A stretch of DNA of 64,000 nt, taken from assembly GCF_001854125.1 (NCBI RefSeq), contig NZ_CP017715.1, forward strand, positions 3,472,001 through 3,536,000. The letters are read 5' to 3'. Under the pieces are notes generated by a model that had not been told where the DNA came from, ran no database searches, and was given only the letters and a program-made list of their open reading frames with translations. A program made the position numbers and the translations under genes. The stretch is from Marinobacter salinus. Its GTDB lineage: Bacteria > Pseudomonadota > Gammaproteobacteria > Pseudomonadales > Oleiphilaceae. Of this stretch, positions 20,281-57,990 are shown piece after piece (the first letter of the stretch is position 1; every line of letters begins with the position of its first letter).

Positions 20281-20712
20281 TTACTCCTGAGCCTGCTTTG
20301 CCGGGATGCTGTCGTCCCAGTGTTCAATCAATCGACAGATGGTATGTCCATCCGGGGTCCCATCAGGCATATCGCGCCAGGCGCTGAGCGCCGTTTCCAT
20401 TCGTTCACGCAGCTGCTGAAGCTCTGTGATCTCCCGCTCAACCTCCAGCAATCGCTGTTCAAACACCTTACGAACCATCGGGCAGGGCGAATGGTGATCG
20501 TCCGCCTGGTCCAGAATGGCCCGGATCTCAGGCAGCGAGAAACCTAATTGCCTGGCTTTTCGCGCAAAACGCAGACGGCGGAGGTCGTCGGTATCGAATT
20601 GTTGATAATTGTTGTCCGGATTACGGGTCGGGTTCAGCAATCCTTCCCGGGTGTAGAAACGGACAGTGTCGGGGTTTACCGCCGCCGCTTCTGCTATTTC
20701 TTTGACTTTCAT
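20281..20712 (-). CDS. MerR family heavy-metal-responsive regulator
   Basis: This 143-residue MerR-type activator starts MKVKEIAEAAAVNPDTVRFY; the N-terminal 70 residues are the winged helix-turn-helix (YTREGLLNPTRN). A dimerisation helix follows. Candidate metal ligands are the Cys in HHSPCPMVR and the Cys/His in GHTICRLIEHW. The single SPCP cysteine at the start of the dimer helix resembles the ZntR/CadR/PbrR branch more than CueR. It is the first gene of the copA operon, and the palindromic operator upstream implies autoregulation. I use ATG 20712; the longer frame to 20781 has no merit. Confidence 0.88.
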   Translation of the reverse strand: MKVKEIAEAAAVNPDTVRFYTREGLLNPTRNPDNNYQQFDTDDLRRLRFARKARQLGFSLPEIRAILDQADDHHSPCPMVRKVFEQRLLEVEREITELQQLRERMETALSAWRDMPDGTPDGHTICRLIEHWDDSIPAKQAQE

Positions 20713-50664: not shown

Positions 50665-51678
50665 ATGACCGCAAACGACCCTTCCCCGCACCACTTGCAG
50701 CTGACCCGGGACGGTCAGTTGCGTCATTTCCTGACCCTGGATGGCCTTGACCGCGAATTGCTGACCGATATTCTGGACACGGCCGATTCGTTTATAGAAG
50801 TTGGTGAACGTACCATCAAGAAGGTGCCGCTGCTTCGGGGGCGGACCGTGGTCAACCTGTTCTTCGAATCGAGCACCCGAACCCGAAGCACTTTTGAGCT
50901 GGCGGCCAAGCGCCTGTCGGCAGACGTACTCAATCTCGATATCAGCACCTCGGCTACCTCAAAGGGCGAATCGCTCTCTGATACCTTGCTGAACCTCGAA
51001 GCCATGGCCAGCGACATGTTTGTTGTTCGCCATTCCCAGAGCGGCGCACCGCATTTCATTGCCGAAAGCGTGACCCCTGGAGTAGCCATTATCAACGCCG
51101 GGGACGGCCGTCATGCGCATCCAACCCAGGCGATGCTGGACATGCTCACTATCCGGCAGCACAAAGGAACTTTTGACGGCCTGAAAGTTGCCATTGTCGG
51201 GGATGTATTGCACTCCCGCGTCGCGCGCTCGCAAATCCGCGCCTTGAACGAACTGGGTGCCGCCGAAGTCCGGGTGATCGCGCCCGGTACCTTGTTGCCG
51301 AAGGACGTGGAAAGCCTGGGCTGCAGCGTTGAATACGACATGGCGAAAGGCATGAAGGATCTGGATGTGGTTATCATGCTGCGGCTGCAAAAAGAGCGGA
51401 TGGAGGGCGCGCTGCTGCCCAGTGAACGGGAGTTCTATCGCTTGTACGGGTTGAGCCAGGAAAAGCTGGCGCTGGCCCATCCCAAGTGCATTGTGATGCA
51501 CCCCGGGCCGATTAACCGGGGCGTGGAAATCGAATCGGCGGTTGCGGACGGACCCCACTCGGTAATCCTGAATCAGGTGACGAACGGCATTGCGATCCGG
51601 ATGGCGGTTATGTCCATGGCGATGGGCGGCCAGGTTGCAGAGCGTCAGAAGAAACAAAGTGAGAGGGCCCGGGCATGA
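50665..51678 (+). CDS. pyrB: Aspartate carbamoyltransferase catalytic subunit
   Basis: The 337-residue enzyme makes carbamoyl aspartate in pyrimidine synthesis. Carbamoyl-phosphate motifs [19 protein letters not shown] and [12 protein letters not shown] are present, together with [11 protein letters not shown]. An N-terminal extension of about 20 residues precedes the fold, as in the Pseudomonas-type enzyme that associates with the inactive PyrC'. It overlaps the next gene by four bases (ATGA). Confidence 0.96.
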
Positions 51679-52982
51679 GTTTGGTAGAAGCAACCAGCGG
51701 AGGCAGTCTGAAGATTGTCGGTGGGCGCCTGATCGATGGGACAGGCGCTGAATCGGACAACATCGCACTGCTGATTCTCGATGGCAGGATCGCCGCCTCG
51801 GGGGACACCGCCAAAAGGGCGACTGCCACTGAAACCGTGAATGCGGAAGGCTGTGTGATCACGCCGGGATTCGTCGATCTGTGCTGCAACCTGCGTGAGC
51901 CTGGTAACGGCCAGAAGGGCAATATCTCCTCGGAAACCCGCGCAGCAGCCCATGGCGGCTTCACAACAGTATGTGCGTCCCCGGAGACCTCGCCGGTGAA
52001 CGATTCCGGTGCTGTCACCCATCTGATTCGGGATGTTGCGGCAACTCGCTCACCCATTCACGTGCTGCCCGTGGGCGCGGTAACCCGCGGTCTGGAAGGG
52101 GACCTTCTTAGTGACATGGCTGGTCTGGCTGCAGCCGGATGTGTGGCGGTAGGCAACGGTTCCAAAGGGGTCCGTAACGCCCGCATCCTGCGCCGTTGTA
52201 TGGCCTATGCCCAGACGTTCGGGCTGACCGTGATGTTCAGCCCGGAAAACCAGGCCCTGGCTGCTGACGGCTATGCCCACGATGGTCTGGTAACGTCCCG
52301 TCTCGGCCTGCTGGGTATTCCGGAAGTCGCGGAAACGGCCGCAGTTATGGAAATGATTCTGCTGGCAGAGGAAACCGGTGTGCGACTGCACCTCAGTCAG
52401 CTTTCCTGCGCCCGCAGCGTGGACATGCTTGCCGAAGCCCGCCGGCGAGGGGTTGCGGTGACGGCCGATGTGGCCATGCATCAGCTGATTTTCACCGAAA
52501 GCGCGCTGGCTGGCTTTGATAGCCGCTTCCACGTTCGTCCGCCCCTGCGCAGGGAAGCGGATCGCAAGGCCTTGATTGCAGGTGTTCGTGCGGGAACGAT
52601 TGATGCCATCGTCAGCCAGCACCAGCCTCACGATTCTGCGGCCAAACAGGCGCCCCTGGCCGCTACCGAGCCTGGCTTGTCGAGTGTAGAGAGCGTGTTG
52701 TCCCTCGGTCTTGAACTGGTGGAATTGAACGAGATGACCCTGCCGGAACTTGTGCGGGCACTGACTGCCGGACCGGCTGCGGCCATTGGCCGGAAGGCGT
52801 CGCTGGCGGAGGGTGAAATAGCCGACCTTTGTGTGTTCGATCCCGAGGAATACTGGACTCCGGGAAAGGATACTCTGGTCTCTGCCGGGCGCCATGCCCC
52901 GATCACGGGGCGGGAGTTGCCTGGGGTTGTGCGCCTCACGGTCGCAGCAGGCCGGATCGCCTGGCAACCAGTAGCGGGCTAA
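51675..52982 (+). CDS. pyrX: Inactive dihydroorotase-like subunit PyrC'
   Basis: The 435-residue protein is homologous to dihydroorotase but the metal motif is lost: where catalytic enzymes read DxHxHLREPG, this has [10 protein letters not shown], with C70 and N72 replacing both His. The amidohydrolase fold is otherwise present (TPGFVDL, then [20 protein letters not shown]). In Pseudomonas such a pseudo-enzyme is needed to assemble active aspartate carbamoyltransferase dodecamers. Overlap with pyrB implies equal production. Confidence 0.92.
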
Positions 52983-53007
52983 TTTGCCGGGTGAGCCTGA
53001 AATGCGG

Positions 53008-53027
53008 CAGAGGTTGTACAACCTCTG
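53008..53027. promoter_or_regulatory. Perfect 20-base palindrome upstream of the solute-binding protein gene
   Basis: CAGAGGTTGTACAACCTCTG is fully self-complementary with no loop. It lies 170-190 bases upstream of the solute-binding gene and 26 bases after the pyrC' stop. The TTGTACAA centre is like operators of FCD-type GntR repressors that often control TRAP transporters. No T-run follows, so it is not an obvious terminator. Confidence 0.6.
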
Positions 53028-53196
53028 TCGACCCCATCACAGAATCCTACCGCCTTGCTGAAAAACTCTTGATGACAGGCACGGGTGCCAACGTATTCTT
53101 GCAGCTGCCGGCCTTTGGTCGGCCAAGGAAAGGGCGGCACCACCGGTACATATGGACGTATCGGCGCCCGACAATAAAAAAATCAGGAGTCATCCC

Positions 53197-54222
53197 GTGA
53201 AATCAACAACCTTCCCGCAACGGGTGGCCTTGACTGCCACCCTGTGTGCCAGTCTGCTAGTACCTTCCCTGAGCCACGCTCAAGCGAAGAGCGAACCACT
53301 TGAAAGAAGCTTTTGCGTGTTCGATCCGGTTGGGGCCAACGGCCCGTTGTTTGCCATCACCAAAACATTCCAGCCGGTAGCCCTGAAACAGGGTATCAAG
53401 CTCAATCTGAGTGCCTATACCGATGAAAAGGTGGCGGCTGAGGACTTCAAGGCCGGCCAGTGCGATGCGGTTTTGCTCACCGGCACCCGGGCACGCGAGT
53501 TCAACAAGTTTACCGGAACTCTCGAGGCCATGGGCGCAGTGCCCGGCGAACACGAAATGCGCCTTCTCTACAATACGCTCAGTCAGCCGAAGGCCCGGCC
53601 GTTCCTGATTGACGGCCCTTATGAAGTGGCTGGCGTTTTTCCGGGCGGGGCCATTTACTTACACACTCGTGACCGACGTATCGACTCTGTCGAGAAGCTT
53701 CAGGGCAAACGCATAGCTACGCTCGATTACGATGAAGCATCGGTTCGCATGGTGCGCCATGTGGGGGCCTCAGTTGTGGGGTCCAATTCGGCCAACTTTG
53801 CCGGCAAGTTTAACAATGGCAGTGTGGACCTGGCCTATGCGCCTGCTGTCGCCTATACCCCGCTGGAACTCTATAAGGGCGTTCAGCCCAACGGCGCGGT
53901 TGTTAAATATGCGCTGGGTTATATGAATTTCCAGGTCATCATTCATCGCGACCGTTTTCCTGATGAAGCGGGCCAGATGGTCCGGGATGAGTCCATCAAA
54001 CGCATCAACGAAGCCTACGAGATTATCGCCGAGGCCGAAGCGGAGATTCCGAAGGATGTCTGGATGACTTTGCCTCGGGAGGACACCGCGGAGTACGACA
54101 AAATGCTGCGGAAGGTGCGGCTTTCACTTCTGGAGGATGGCGTTTACGACGAGCGAGCTATCAGGCTGATGAAGGCTATTCGGTGTCGTGTGGATGGCGC
54201 GCGTTCGGAGTGTGCCTCCTGA
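53197..54222 (+). CDS. Periplasmic solute-binding protein, TRAP-like (DUF6091 type)
   Basis: The 341-residue protein has a signal peptide (hydrophobic to about residue 25, cleaved near SHAQA). The body resembles a periplasmic binding protein: VFDPVGANGPLFAITK, ADPVLL-like AGQCDAVLLTGTRARE, then LQGKRIATLDYDEASVRMVRHVG, typical of DctP/TAXI-like or phosphonate-type folds. Four Cys (SFC, GQC, IRC, SEC) may form disulfides. The start is GTG 53197, with AGGAG seven bases before it; the frame extends to 53152 but lacks support. The partner permease and lipoprotein lie beyond the HU gene. Confidence 0.8.
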   Translation: MKSTTFPQRVALTATLCASLLVPSLSHAQAKSEPLERSFCVFDPVGANGPLFAITKTFQPVALKQGIKLNLSAYTDEKVAAEDFKAGQCDAVLLTGTRAREFNKFTGTLEAMGAVPGEHEMRLLYNTLSQPKARPFLIDGPYEVAGVFPGGAIYLHTRDRRIDSVEKLQGKRIATLDYDEASVRMVRHVGASVVGSNSANFAGKFNNGSVDLAYAPAVAYTPLELYKGVQPNGAVVKYALGYMNFQVIIHRDRFPDEAGQMVRDESIKRINEAYEIIAEAEAEIPKDVWMTLPREDTAEYDKMLRKVRLSLLEDGVYDERAIRLMKAIRCRVDGARSECAS

Positions 54223-54245
54223 ACCGAGCGTCGGAAGTGTGACTT

Positions 54246-54270
54246 GGCCCGCCGATCAGGCGGGCCTTTT
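54246..54270 (+). terminator. Intrinsic terminator after the solute-binding gene
   Basis: An eight-base GC stem GGCCCGCC/GGCGGGCC with a GATCA loop (54246-54266) is followed by TTTT. It terminates plus-strand transcription 24 bases after the solute-binding gene. Thus the lipoprotein and permease genes need their own promoter. Confidence 0.85.
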
Positions 54271-54274
54271 CGTT

Positions 54275-54547
54275 TCAGGTGATTTGCTCTTTCAGGGCCT
54301 TGCCGGCCTTGAATCCGACGGTCTTGCTGGCAGGGATGCGAATGGCAGCGCCGGTTTGCGGATTTCTGCCATCCCGGGCTTCGCGATTTCGGATGTTGAA
54401 GGTCCCAAAACCAATCAAGGTTACATCTTCGCCGCGCGCTGCGGCTGCAGAAATCTGATCGGTGACCGCCGTGATGACTTCACTGGCTTTCTCCCTGGTC
54501 AGGCCGGTCCGGTCGGCAATAGCTGCAGCGAGTTCAGGTTTGCGCAT
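54275..54547 (-). CDS. hupB: HU-family DNA-binding protein
   Basis: The 90-residue histone-like protein opens MRKPELAAAIADRTGLTREK, has the beta-arm motif GFGTFNIRNREARDGRNPQTG and ends SKTVGFKAGKALKEQI. It bends DNA and compacts the nucleoid. I start at ATG 54547 with AAGGAT before it; the frame is open to 54760 but the extension is not HU-like. HupB versus HupA is not resolvable, and hupB in many relatives follows lon, unlike here. It is on the opposite strand within the TRAP-like cluster. Confidence 0.88.
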   Translation of the reverse strand: MRKPELAAAIADRTGLTREKASEVITAVTDQISAAAARGEDVTLIGFGTFNIRNREARDGRNPQTGAAIRIPASKTVGFKAGKALKEQIT

Positions 54548-54836
54548 CGTTTTATCCTTTTTTGTTTCTGTTTTTTGGTCTGAGTGCTGTCCGCGTAGTC
54601 CGAAGGACTGGCGGTTGCACCAATCTATAGTGGTTTGTGGCCGAATGTGCAAACCGCGTGGCGGTTGGGGTATGGGGTCATTGGCGCCATTTGCGGTGTC
54701 GGTCTCATAAAAACAGGATCTTGTACGCCATAATGTGTCGCTGGTTACAGTCTGTAACAAAGCGCTCCTTTGTCAGACGAGGGGCCGCCAAACAAATTCA
54801 GCGAGCACGAGAATAAAAGCAAAAGGTGAAGACGTA

Positions 54837-55901
54837 ATGGCACATTTTCGAATTTCCTCACTGGATTGCGCCCGCGACTTGTCCGCTCTGAAAGCCTATG
54901 TCGCGGTGCTTGTCGCGAGTCTGGTTCTCAGTGGCTGTGGTGTGATGAACCAGATGATCTACAAGACCACCGGTGATGTGATGCAGGGTTTCTCCCGAGA
55001 CCATACTGTGCCCTACCTGATGAAAAGCGGCGATTTGGCTATGGGTTGTGCCATGAGCGAAGCTACCGCTCCGCTGCTGATGTCGTTTGGTCGGGTAACC
55101 TCCGAGCCTGACCAGCTGGCCGTCATGCTGTATCTCTCTGCTGGTGGCTGTGCCGAGGAGGAGGCTCGCGAGCATGAGCTTGCCGGCCTTGCTGCCATGA
55201 ATGCGCTGAACGCCAATGAGGCTGAAGACGCCATGATTCGCCAGAAACGGGCGTACATGCTGGCGTCAGCGCGTTACTTCAAGGCCTGGAAACATCACAA
55301 CGCGTTTTATGGCGAGCCTGGGAACGGTGAATGCCCGGGCTTTGACGATGACATGGACGAGTTCATCTATATGGCCGGTCTGCTCTCGGGCCTGCAGGCG
55401 CTGAACGCCCAGATCCAGTCCACATCTTCTATTGGCGTGCCGGCCAACATCGGCTCTATTGTCGCCCGGGCCACCAGTTGCCTTGAGAACGACAAGTGGT
55501 GGGGCGCCCCTATGGCACTCCGTGCGACCGTCTGGGCCATGATTCCCGGGGCACAACCACAGGGCGAGAATGCGTTTGAGCGCCTGGAGATCGCCGACAA
55601 GCAGGGTGAGGAAGCGGGTGTACGTCTACCACATGTGTTTCATGCCATTGCCGCCATCAACAAGGGCGATCAGGACATGGTCAAAGACGTTATCCGCGAG
55701 CATGCGCAGTCTCTGGACGAAAAGCCGGCCGACGAGGAATGGCGTTTTGTGGATGCCATGGCCACTAACATGATGGTCGCGATCTCGGATCGCCTTTGGG
55801 TGGAAAATACCGGCCACCGTACGCCTCTGGGGCAGCTCGGCACCTTCTGGGATGACCAGCAGGAAGAGGTCGAAACCATGAACCTAGACGATTTGTTGTA
55901 A
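54837..55901 (+). CDS. TatT-like lipoprotein of a TRAP transporter
   Basis: The 354-residue lipoprotein has a lipobox VLSGC with Cys34, so it is probably anchored to a membrane as a lipoprotein. The body is largely helical with repeated helix-turn-helix units (LAGLAAMNALNANEAEDAM, RYFKAWKHHN), resembling TPR-like TatT proteins, which work with TRAP binding proteins and were described in Treponema. I start at ATG 54837, with AAGGTGA upstream; the frame is open to 54735. It ends seven bases before the permease gene. Confidence 0.78.
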   Translation: MAHFRISSLDCARDLSALKAYVAVLVASLVLSGCGVMNQMIYKTTGDVMQGFSRDHTVPYLMKSGDLAMGCAMSEATAPLLMSFGRVTSEPDQLAVMLYLSAGGCAEEEAREHELAGLAAMNALNANEAEDAMIRQKRAYMLASARYFKAWKHHNAFYGEPGNGECPGFDDDMDEFIYMAGLLSGLQALNAQIQSTSSIGVPANIGSIVARATSCLENDKWWGAPMALRATVWAMIPGAQPQGENAFERLEIADKQGEEAGVRLPHVFHAIAAINKGDQDMVKDVIREHAQSLDEKPADEEWRFVDAMATNMMVAISDRLWVENTGHRTPLGQLGTFWDDQQEEVETMNLDDLL

Positions 55902-55908
55902 CAATTCC

Positions 55909-57990
55909 ATGTCTCAGAATGTAGCGCTTTCGAGGGTTGGTTTTCATCGTAGCGGGCTGGAGTGGTTTTCCTCTTTGCCCGCCTGTTTGCTGTTGCTGGC
56001 TGTCGTCATTTTTTCCACCAGCAGTGACATCCATAACCAGATGCTGCGTGGTGGTGAACAGCTCTGGAGCGGTTATTACAAGCTCCGAATGGATCCGGTC
56101 GCACCGACCTGTAACGCGAACCGGGACATAGAGGCCGCCGTTGCCGCTGAACTTGCGGAAGAAACCCCGACAGATGACCCCATGGCGGGCTTGCTGGGAG
56201 CCGAGGAAAAGAACCCGGCAGATGTCCGGCTGTCGATCGAGCGCGCGGTGGCTGACTGCAGGGCCGCCCATCAGAGCTATGAAAGTCTCAAGGATCAGCT
56301 CACTCCGGGTGTGAAAGTCTACCGTGCGGTGGAGCTCTTCGTTGCTGACCTGATTGCTTTTGGTCTTTCCTCCCAGCGTTATATTCTGGTCATTCTGGTT
56401 ATGCTGTGCGCTGTGACTGCCACGTTGACCCGGCACCACATAGCCATGCGGGCCATGGAAACCCGCCTGGACTACGCCGTTTCACATACCTTGCAGACCA
56501 TCGCCAACGCCATGCTGCTCGGTTCCAGCTTGATTTTTCGCCAGTCCAGCCTTGGGGCTGAGACCACGGTTTCAGCGGAAGAGCTGCTGCTGCACAATTT
56601 CTGGATTATCGGCTTTGCCTGCCTCACCCTTGCCAGCCTTTATCGACTGTTCCAGGTGCCGGATGGCCTGAAGGAGGGGGGTAGCCCGAACAAGGCATTC
56701 CTTGCCGTGCCCCTGTACACCGTAATGTGCCTTATTTCAGGAACATACTTCTTCTTCATTGGCCACTCTTCAGGGATCGGGATCTATCTCGGCAAGATGA
56801 TGGAGCTGGCAGACATGTTCCTGAATGTGGGGCTCTATGTCTGGGTGGGTATGATGCTCAAACAGACCCGCCTGGCTTCTCTGGTATTCAACGTTTTCCG
56901 GCCCTGGAGAATGCCCCCGGAGCTACTCGCCGTCGTCGCTGTTCTGGTTGCCGCAGTGCCCACTGCCTACACCGGTGCCTCCGGTATTTTCGTGATTGCC
57001 GCGGGCGCGGTTATCTACAGTGAGCTACGTGCTGCCGGGGCCCGCCGACAGCTGGCCTTGGCAGCCACCGCCATGTCCGGTTCTCTTGGTGTGGTAATGC
57101 GACCGTGCCTGCTGGTAGTTGTTATCGCATACCTCAACCGGGAAGTGACGACGGATGAGCTCTTTGGTTGGGGGATCTGGGTGTTTGTCCTGACCGCCAC
57201 CATGTTCACCCTGGTGGCGCTCACAGTGAACCGCGAGAGCAAGTTCAATCTGGCGCCTGCTTCTGAAGCCTTTCCGGTCATGATCCAGTCCTTCAAGCCG
57301 CTGATACCCTATGTCGTTGTCATTGCTATTGTGGTCCTGCTGTACCGCTTTGCACTGGACGTCCACATGGATGAATTCTCGGCGCCACGATTGCTGCCGG
57401 TAATCATGCTGGCCATCCTGCTGTACGAGCATGTGGGCTTGAAAACCAGGAAAGGCAGGGCCACCGGCGAACTCAACCACCAGGGCCTTGAGCGCAGTTT
57501 GCGGGGCGCCACCAATGACACCACGGCAGAGATCGGCGCGTTGCTTTTGCTACTTGGCCTGTCGGTCAGTATTGGTGGCGTTATTGAGCGCTCCCACCTT
57601 ATGCAGAGTTTTCCTCAGGCCTTCGACAGCGCCTGGTCGGCTATGCTGCTGATGGTGGTGATCCTGGTGATACTGGGTATGATTATGGACGCTTTCGGTG
57701 CGGTCATCCTGGTGACTGCAACGGTGGCGACCATTGCATACGCCAGTGGCATCCATCCTGTTCATTTCTGGATGGTTACGTTGGTGGCCTTCGAGCTGGG
57801 TTACCTGAGCCCGCCGGTGGCGTTGAACCACCTTTTAACCCGACAGGTGGTTGGCGAAGCGGAATTTGCGGCGGCCGATGAGCAAAACGGGACTTTTTAC
57901 CAACGTCATGAACGTATCATCATGCCGCTCATTGCTATGGGGATCTCGTTGTTGTTGGTGGCCTTCGTCCCACTGATGTTCTACGCCTGA
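55909..57990 (+). CDS. Large TRAP-type permease (DctM-like)
   Basis: The 693-residue inner-membrane protein has about 14 helices. An N-terminal helix is followed by a 100-residue periplasmic loop with two Cys (PTCNAN and VADCRA), then a DctQ-like region and the DctM-like body. Motifs of the large subunit are the segments LAATAMSGSLGVVMRP and YLSPPVALNHLLTRQVVGE near the C-terminus. Size suggests fused small and large subunits. It moves solute using an ion gradient. It has no clear ribosome-binding site, so translation may be coupled to the lipoprotein gene. Confidence 0.82.
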   Translation: MSQNVALSRVGFHRSGLEWFSSLPACLLLLAVVIFSTSSDIHNQMLRGGEQLWSGYYKLRMDPVAPTCNANRDIEAAVAAELAEETPTDDPMAGLLGAEEKNPADVRLSIERAVADCRAAHQSYESLKDQLTPGVKVYRAVELFVADLIAFGLSSQRYILVILVMLCAVTATLTRHHIAMRAMETRLDYAVSHTLQTIANAMLLGSSLIFRQSSLGAETTVSAEELLLHNFWIIGFACLTLASLYRLFQVPDGLKEGGSPNKAFLAVPLYTVMCLISGTYFFFIGHSSGIGIYLGKMMELADMFLNVGLYVWVGMMLKQTRLASLVFNVFRPWRMPPELLAVVAVLVAAVPTAYTGASGIFVIAAGAVIYSELRAAGARRQLALAATAMSGSLGVVMRPCLLVVVIAYLNREVTTDELFGWGIWVFVLTATMFTLVALTVNRESKFNLAPASEAFPVMIQSFKPLIPYVVVIAIVVLLYRFALDVHMDEFSAPRLLPVIMLAILLYEHVGLKTRKGRATGELNHQGLERSLRGATNDTTAEIGALLLLLGLSVSIGGVIERSHLMQSFPQAFDSAWSAMLLMVVILVILGMIMDAFGAVILVTATVATIAYASGIHPVHFWMVTLVAFELGYLSPPVALNHLLTRQVVGEAEFAAADEQNGTFYQRHERIIMPLIAMGISLLLVAFVPLMFYA

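Follow-up and report, generated by a model that had tools for sequence, protein, structure and literature searches.

The window analyzed here is a 64,000-nucleotide stretch of the Marinobacter salinus genome. One plus-strand gene in it (51675-52982; Pfam PF01979) codes for a dihydroorotase-like amidohydrolase that we take to be pyrC′, judging by the look of its translation, and on the same grounds the preceding open reading frame is presumably pyrB. Downstream of pyrC′, also on the plus strand, is a gene for a solute-binding protein (SBP) of the AdeT1_2 family (53197-54222; PF19582, Pfam E-value 1.1e-78). It begins with GTG and is preceded by CAGGAG at 53184-53189, and both features were conserved across the aligned loci described below. 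A Pfam scan of the five proteins encoded between 51675 and 57990 returned amidohydrolase, AdeT1_2, HU, no family (the gene at 54837, which we presume to be TatT-like) and DctM; none of the five looked like a candidate regulator of SBP. The sequence-only reading had placed the palindrome studied here ahead of the TRAP-like cluster, but the SBP gene and a minus-strand HU gene stand between it and the genes at 54837-57990.

The palindrome, CAGAGGTTGTACAACCTCTG, occupies positions 53008-53027, 25 nt past the pyrC′ stop codon and 169 nt ahead of the GTG start of SBP. It is a perfect 20-bp palindrome, exactly as first described, and the sole one of that kind in the window. Positions 53005-53007 and 53028-53030 could form three additional RNA pairs, one of them G-U, again as described. 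Absence of a T-run was also borne out: a terminator scan found no terminator-like stem with a T-run at the palindrome, and its single match (53184-53197, minus strand) lies away from this site. In 30 first-order Markov simulations, the mean number of perfect 20-bp palindromes was 0.067 per 64 kb, which extrapolates to approximately 4 per 4.12-Mb genome. Thus, perfection alone is weak evidence, and conservation carries the case. A search for the palindrome elsewhere, proposed in the sequence-only reading, gave no second copy of the 20-mer in the window with up to 3 mismatches and a single place for the inner 14-mer in the whole genome. This 14-mer was present in 2 of 124 genomes of the genus, including M. 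salinus itself; the other genome carries AGGTTGTACAACCT (L002; G012:C13:330614-330627) at a distance of about 112 kb from SBP. No exact match to the full 20-mer was obtained in the contig collection, which may exclude the same or very near genomes.

Conservation was assessed by scanning genome contigs with pyrC′, which gave 92 relatives. Eighty loci were kept, 78 of them labelled Marinobacter; a downstream SBP match was present in 69 and absent in 11. The alignment contained 66 intergenic regions (the window and 65 others), with L022, L068, L076 and L078 omitted for their spacing; by eye, the repeat described below was present in L022 and L076 and absent in L068 and L078. One locus (L069) was excluded from the spacing counts, leaving 65 loci, and L069, L056 and L058 were excluded from the tree counts and from the covariance model. 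At the place of the palindrome, the aligned regions shared the consensus TGCGGCAGAGGT-N6-ACCTCTGTCGA. In the window, the conserved unit is a 26-bp inverted repeat, CGGCAGAGG-N8-CCTCTGTCG (53005-53030, plus strand), which contains the palindrome; its consensus, situated between pyrC′ and the SBP gene, is CGRCAGAGG-N8-CCTCTGYCG.

Constraint was distributed unevenly over this region. By parsimony on the pyrC′ tree (63 loci), the ten-pair stem of the repeat accumulated 2.75 changes per site and two of its pairs never changed, whereas the centre (53015-53020) accumulated 14.8, compared to 16.9 in the spacer before the repeat (52985-53000) and approximately 18 at fourfold sites of pyrC′ (1399 changes at 78 sites). 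The conserved block started abruptly at about position 52999. Farther downstream, 9.9 changes per site were counted for both 53042-53056 and 53106-53180, and 2.5 for 53069-53099. Variants of the centre included TGCGGA, AGTGAT, CCGGTG, TGGCTA and others. Judged from these alignments, most Marinobacter genomes examined keep a short inverted repeat, of which the palindrome is the form seen in a single species; the outer arms of the repeat, rather than its centre, look like the parts that matter. A small open reading frame starting from a conserved ATG or GTG before the stem was also considered and rejected, since by eye L006 (ATG CGG CAG AGG TAG) and L020 (ATG CGG CAG GGG TAG) run into stop codons.

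Several additional conserved elements were found between the repeat and SBP. The pentamer TCACA (53037-53041, plus strand), which forms the right half of a degenerate CRP-like TGTCG-N6-TCACA (53026-53041), showed no change at any of its five sites among 63 tips. It is followed on the plus strand by a -35-like TTGATG (53069-53074) and by a -10-like TATTCT (53094-53099), the latter inside the conserved block GCCAACGTATTCT and with no changes at 5 of 6 sites; CTTG (53068-53071) did not change on the pyrC′ tree either. In the middle of the 19-bp spacer between the two hexamers, sequence and tree pointed to a second dyad, GGCACGGGTGCC (53078-53089), with MerR-like geometry. Together, CTTGA, GGCAC-N2-GTGCC and AACGTATTCT belonged to the parts of the region with the fewest changes; the dyad GGCAC-N2-GTGCC is exact in the window and imperfect in several loci. 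A promoter scan also selected TATTCT, but paired it with ATGACA, 16 nt away, as the first hexamer, and the bases of ATGACA vary across loci. The promoter core GYGCCAACGTATYCT had one exact place in its own genome, with a mild excess of related places at up to 2 mismatches (25 matches, compared to 14 for a reversed control).

Spacing of these elements was informative. In all 65 loci, 37 or 38 nt separated the stem from TTGA, and the starts of TTGA and TATTCT were 25 nt apart. In contrast, the pyrC′ stop codon preceded the stem by 6-70 nt (6-36 nt in 63 of 65 loci), and the -10-like hexamer preceded the SBP start codon by 53-114 nt. Since the distance between stem and promoter is fixed and distances to both genes are variable, the repeat appears to be positioned relative to the promoter-like block.

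Distribution of the element was examined with a covariance model built from 55 distinct elements. Within the genus, 98 of 124 genomes gave a match with E ≤ 0.1, always at a single place; in two of them (G032 and G095) the reverse strand of the same place was also listed, and two others (G059 and G114) matched only at E of about 0.01. The sequence-only reading had held that copies at many unrelated operons would mark a repeat or terminator, and such copies were not detected at this threshold. An SBP match (E ≤ 1e-40) was present in 103 genomes, including all 98 with the element, and none of the 21 genomes lacking an SBP match had the element at E ≤ 0.1; two of these gave weak matches at E ≤ 1 (G122, 0.17; G006, 0.86). 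Consistently, the repeat was absent, by eye, from the 70 nt after pyrC′ in 11 of 11 pyrC′ loci without SBP. The pyrC′ loci and the 124 genomes overlap (e.g., L134/L068, L135/L069, L138/L076, L139/L022 and L140/L006), so counts from one set are not independent of those from the other. Beyond the genus, 14 genomes matched at E ≤ 0.01 in a sample of 390 from the order, all of them Marinobacter, and a search of 163 genomes of the family at E ≤ 1 added two other genera at E-values of 0.04 and 0.52; searches over more than 40 genomes apply stricter filters, with which weak matches are lost.

Five SBP-bearing genomes lacked the element at E ≤ 0.1 (G012, G054, G081, G092 and G101). In all of these except G092 (loci L133-L136), TCACA and the promoter block were visible by eye and the repeat was missing or degenerate; in L078, neither the repeat nor the TCACA/promoter block was clearly visible. 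The SBP gene can therefore do without the repeat in some genomes. In four genomes that have the element and a weak SBP match (G005, G065, G083 and G086; loci L137, L138, L139 and L140), the SBP gene is broken or partial, yet the upstream element is kept, suggesting that the SBP gene is decaying in several lineages. Weak second places at E ≤ 1 were found in a few genomes of the genus, including M. salinus (C1:2984286, E-value 0.64). When the repeat arms were searched in that genome with up to 3 mismatches, 6 forward matches were found, compared to 7 for a reversed control. Because each genome has a single place and M. salinus shows no surplus of similar sites, a regulon that could point to the regulator is lacking.

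These observations suggest, with a probability of roughly 0.55, a conserved operator or activator site upstream of the SBP promoter, having the palindrome as its core and bound by a putative dimeric regulator. Constrained arms around a near-neutral centre are what an operator bound by a dimer usually shows, and both the co-occurrence of the element with SBP and its fixed promoter spacing count for this interpretation. The regulator would contact both arms in double-stranded DNA, around -88 relative to the predicted SBP transcription start; a reader of TCACA (perhaps CRP-like, around -72) would act alongside it, and the two together would raise or lower SBP expression. The earlier proposal of an operator for the solute-binding gene thus stands insofar as a conserved cis element tied to such a gene is present, but the gene is that at 53197 and not that at 54837. 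Counting against an operator are the single place per genome, the loci in which the repeat is unclear (L133-L136 and L078), and the four genomes in which the element accompanies a broken or partial SBP gene. A preference of the stem for G·U is a further point against it, and this preference leads to the alternative that we rank second.

According to this alternative, which we regard as possible but clearly the weaker of the two, the repeat would fold into a hairpin within the 3′ untranslated part of the pyrBC′ mRNA, where it would stop 3′ exonucleases at a Rho-dependent end or insulate SBP from read-through, and adjacency to the SBP promoter would merely reflect a compact intergenic region. 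In the ten-pair stem, 24 tree events converted a Watson-Crick pair into a G·U pair on the sense strand and only 3 into A·C, a bias not predicted by a DNA operator; the same directions of base change at the 78 fourfold sites gave 359 to 232. A count per pair speaks against a strong reading of this bias, as G·U was favoured in only 6 of 7 pairs (one-sided sign test, 8/128 = 0.06). Of 55 sequences, 49 had G·U at the pair 53007/53028. Moreover, 93.9% of cells were paired, with a covariation score above all 500 shuffles, the 26-nt sense strand folded better than the antisense strand (-16.2 versus -11.7 kcal/mol), and the stem lies soon after the pyrC′ stop codon in nearly all loci. Against the hairpin, 4 pairs changed on both sides, a number reached by 91 of 500 shuffles; 6 further events broke a Watson-Crick pair outright, besides 7 that swapped one Watson-Crick pair for another; and the stem, with its unchanging pairs, is constrained far beyond the need for pairing. 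The T-run is absent, the distance that stays fixed is that to the promoter and not that to pyrC′, and the presence of the element follows that of SBP, not that of pyrC′. The bias of G·U over A·C could also arise in an operator whose half-sites are unequal. A combined role is rather unlikely: the same sequence would end and protect the pyrBC′ message as RNA, and its arms would serve as DNA operator of the SBP promoter, making it a boundary element shared by two units.

Fixed spacing through position 53100, together with the sense-strand G·U preference, would also fit a cis-regulatory leader RNA of SBP that begins upstream of 53000 and has the repeat as its first stem. We consider this improbable, as 52985-52998 contains no conserved sequence that could serve as promoter, RNAalifold detected no helix beyond the one stem in 53000-53110 (63 rows) and only a 3-pair helix in 53036-53196, and the pairings CCATCA/TGATGG and GGCAC/GTGCC were not kept across loci by eye. 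In addition, no Rfam family reached its gathering score in 52800-54900, where five sub-threshold matches were obtained. Lack of another helix in 53000-53110 makes the downstream block look like a promoter and not like a folded leader. Less probable still is a GntR/FCD-type operator with TTGTACAA as recognition core, the family to which the sequence-only reading had likened the centre. In its own genome the centre does have, to our eye, the look of such sites; however, a conserved core of this kind is absent from the near-neutral centre, TGTACA occurs in the window only among the 66 aligned loci, and a GntR match was found in none of the five neighbouring proteins scanned. With its centre near-neutral and its arms constrained, the part that resembles GntR/FCD sites is the unconstrained part of the repeat. 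Finally, a dispersed repeat or a chance palindrome is hardly credible: a few such palindromes are expected by chance in a genome of this size, but conservation at one place in 98 genomes refutes this explanation, and related sites in the own genome were no more frequent than in the reversed control.

The gene at 54837 has its own promoter-like region with an inverted repeat, GTTACAGTCTGTAAC (54744-54758), located 9 nt after CATAAT (54729-54734). Of 69 orthologous regions upstream of this gene, the window included, 50 contained a TTAC-N5-GTAAC motif, which is a candidate for a separate operator of the 54837/DctM genes. Around GTTACAGTCTGTAAC, a 17-base pattern occurred exactly once in the genome; allowing up to 2 mismatches gave 13 matches, compared to 4 for a reversed control.

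Taken together, inverted repeat, TCACA and a promoter-like block with an internal dyad form a well-delimited putative control region for the gene of an AdeT1/2-family binding protein in Marinobacter. None of the titles and abstract openings searched in the open-licence literature described this element. As far as can be read from genome comparison, it resembles an as yet undescribed gene-control site of an ordinary kind, and it opens no long-standing question. It also illustrates that, in a striking palindrome, constraint can be weakest at the centre.

Comparison with known systems places the element in context. Rho-dependent termination and trimming leave stem-loops at mRNA 3′ ends, and the repeat resembles these in having a stable stem soon after a stop codon and no T-run; it differs in that its distance is fixed to the downstream promoter and not to the upstream gene. 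Sites of CRP/FNR-type activators have the consensus TGTGA-N6-TCACA, and class I sites of CRP use a position of about -72.5. The unchanging TCACA with TGTCG 6 nt before it is similar, and with transcription starting 7 nt downstream of TATTCT its centre would lie at about -72.5. However, the left half is TGTCG in most loci and TGTGA in 0 of 66, and its two mismatching bases belong to the stem of the repeat. Membership among CRP sites therefore fails on the left half, and a weak or different activator at TCACA is possible; the genome encodes 10 HTH_Crp_2 matches, 9 of them over the cut-off. MerR-type promoters, as described in PMC1526738, have a spacer of 19 or 20 bp that contains a strong palindrome. 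By that description, the SBP promoter-like block, and not the palindrome, is similar in its 19-bp spacer and centred dyad GGCAC-N2-GTGCC, but differs in that the dyad is imperfect in several loci and that none of the four MerR_1 matches in the genome is adjacent to the block. One MerR_1 domain match lies inside the window (20506-20712, minus strand; G000:C1:3492506-3492712). Compared to palindromic operators of dimeric bacterial regulators, the element differs in its single place per genome and its sense-strand wobble bias, but it shares with them two constrained inverted arms, a free centre and a fixed position relative to a promoter-like block.
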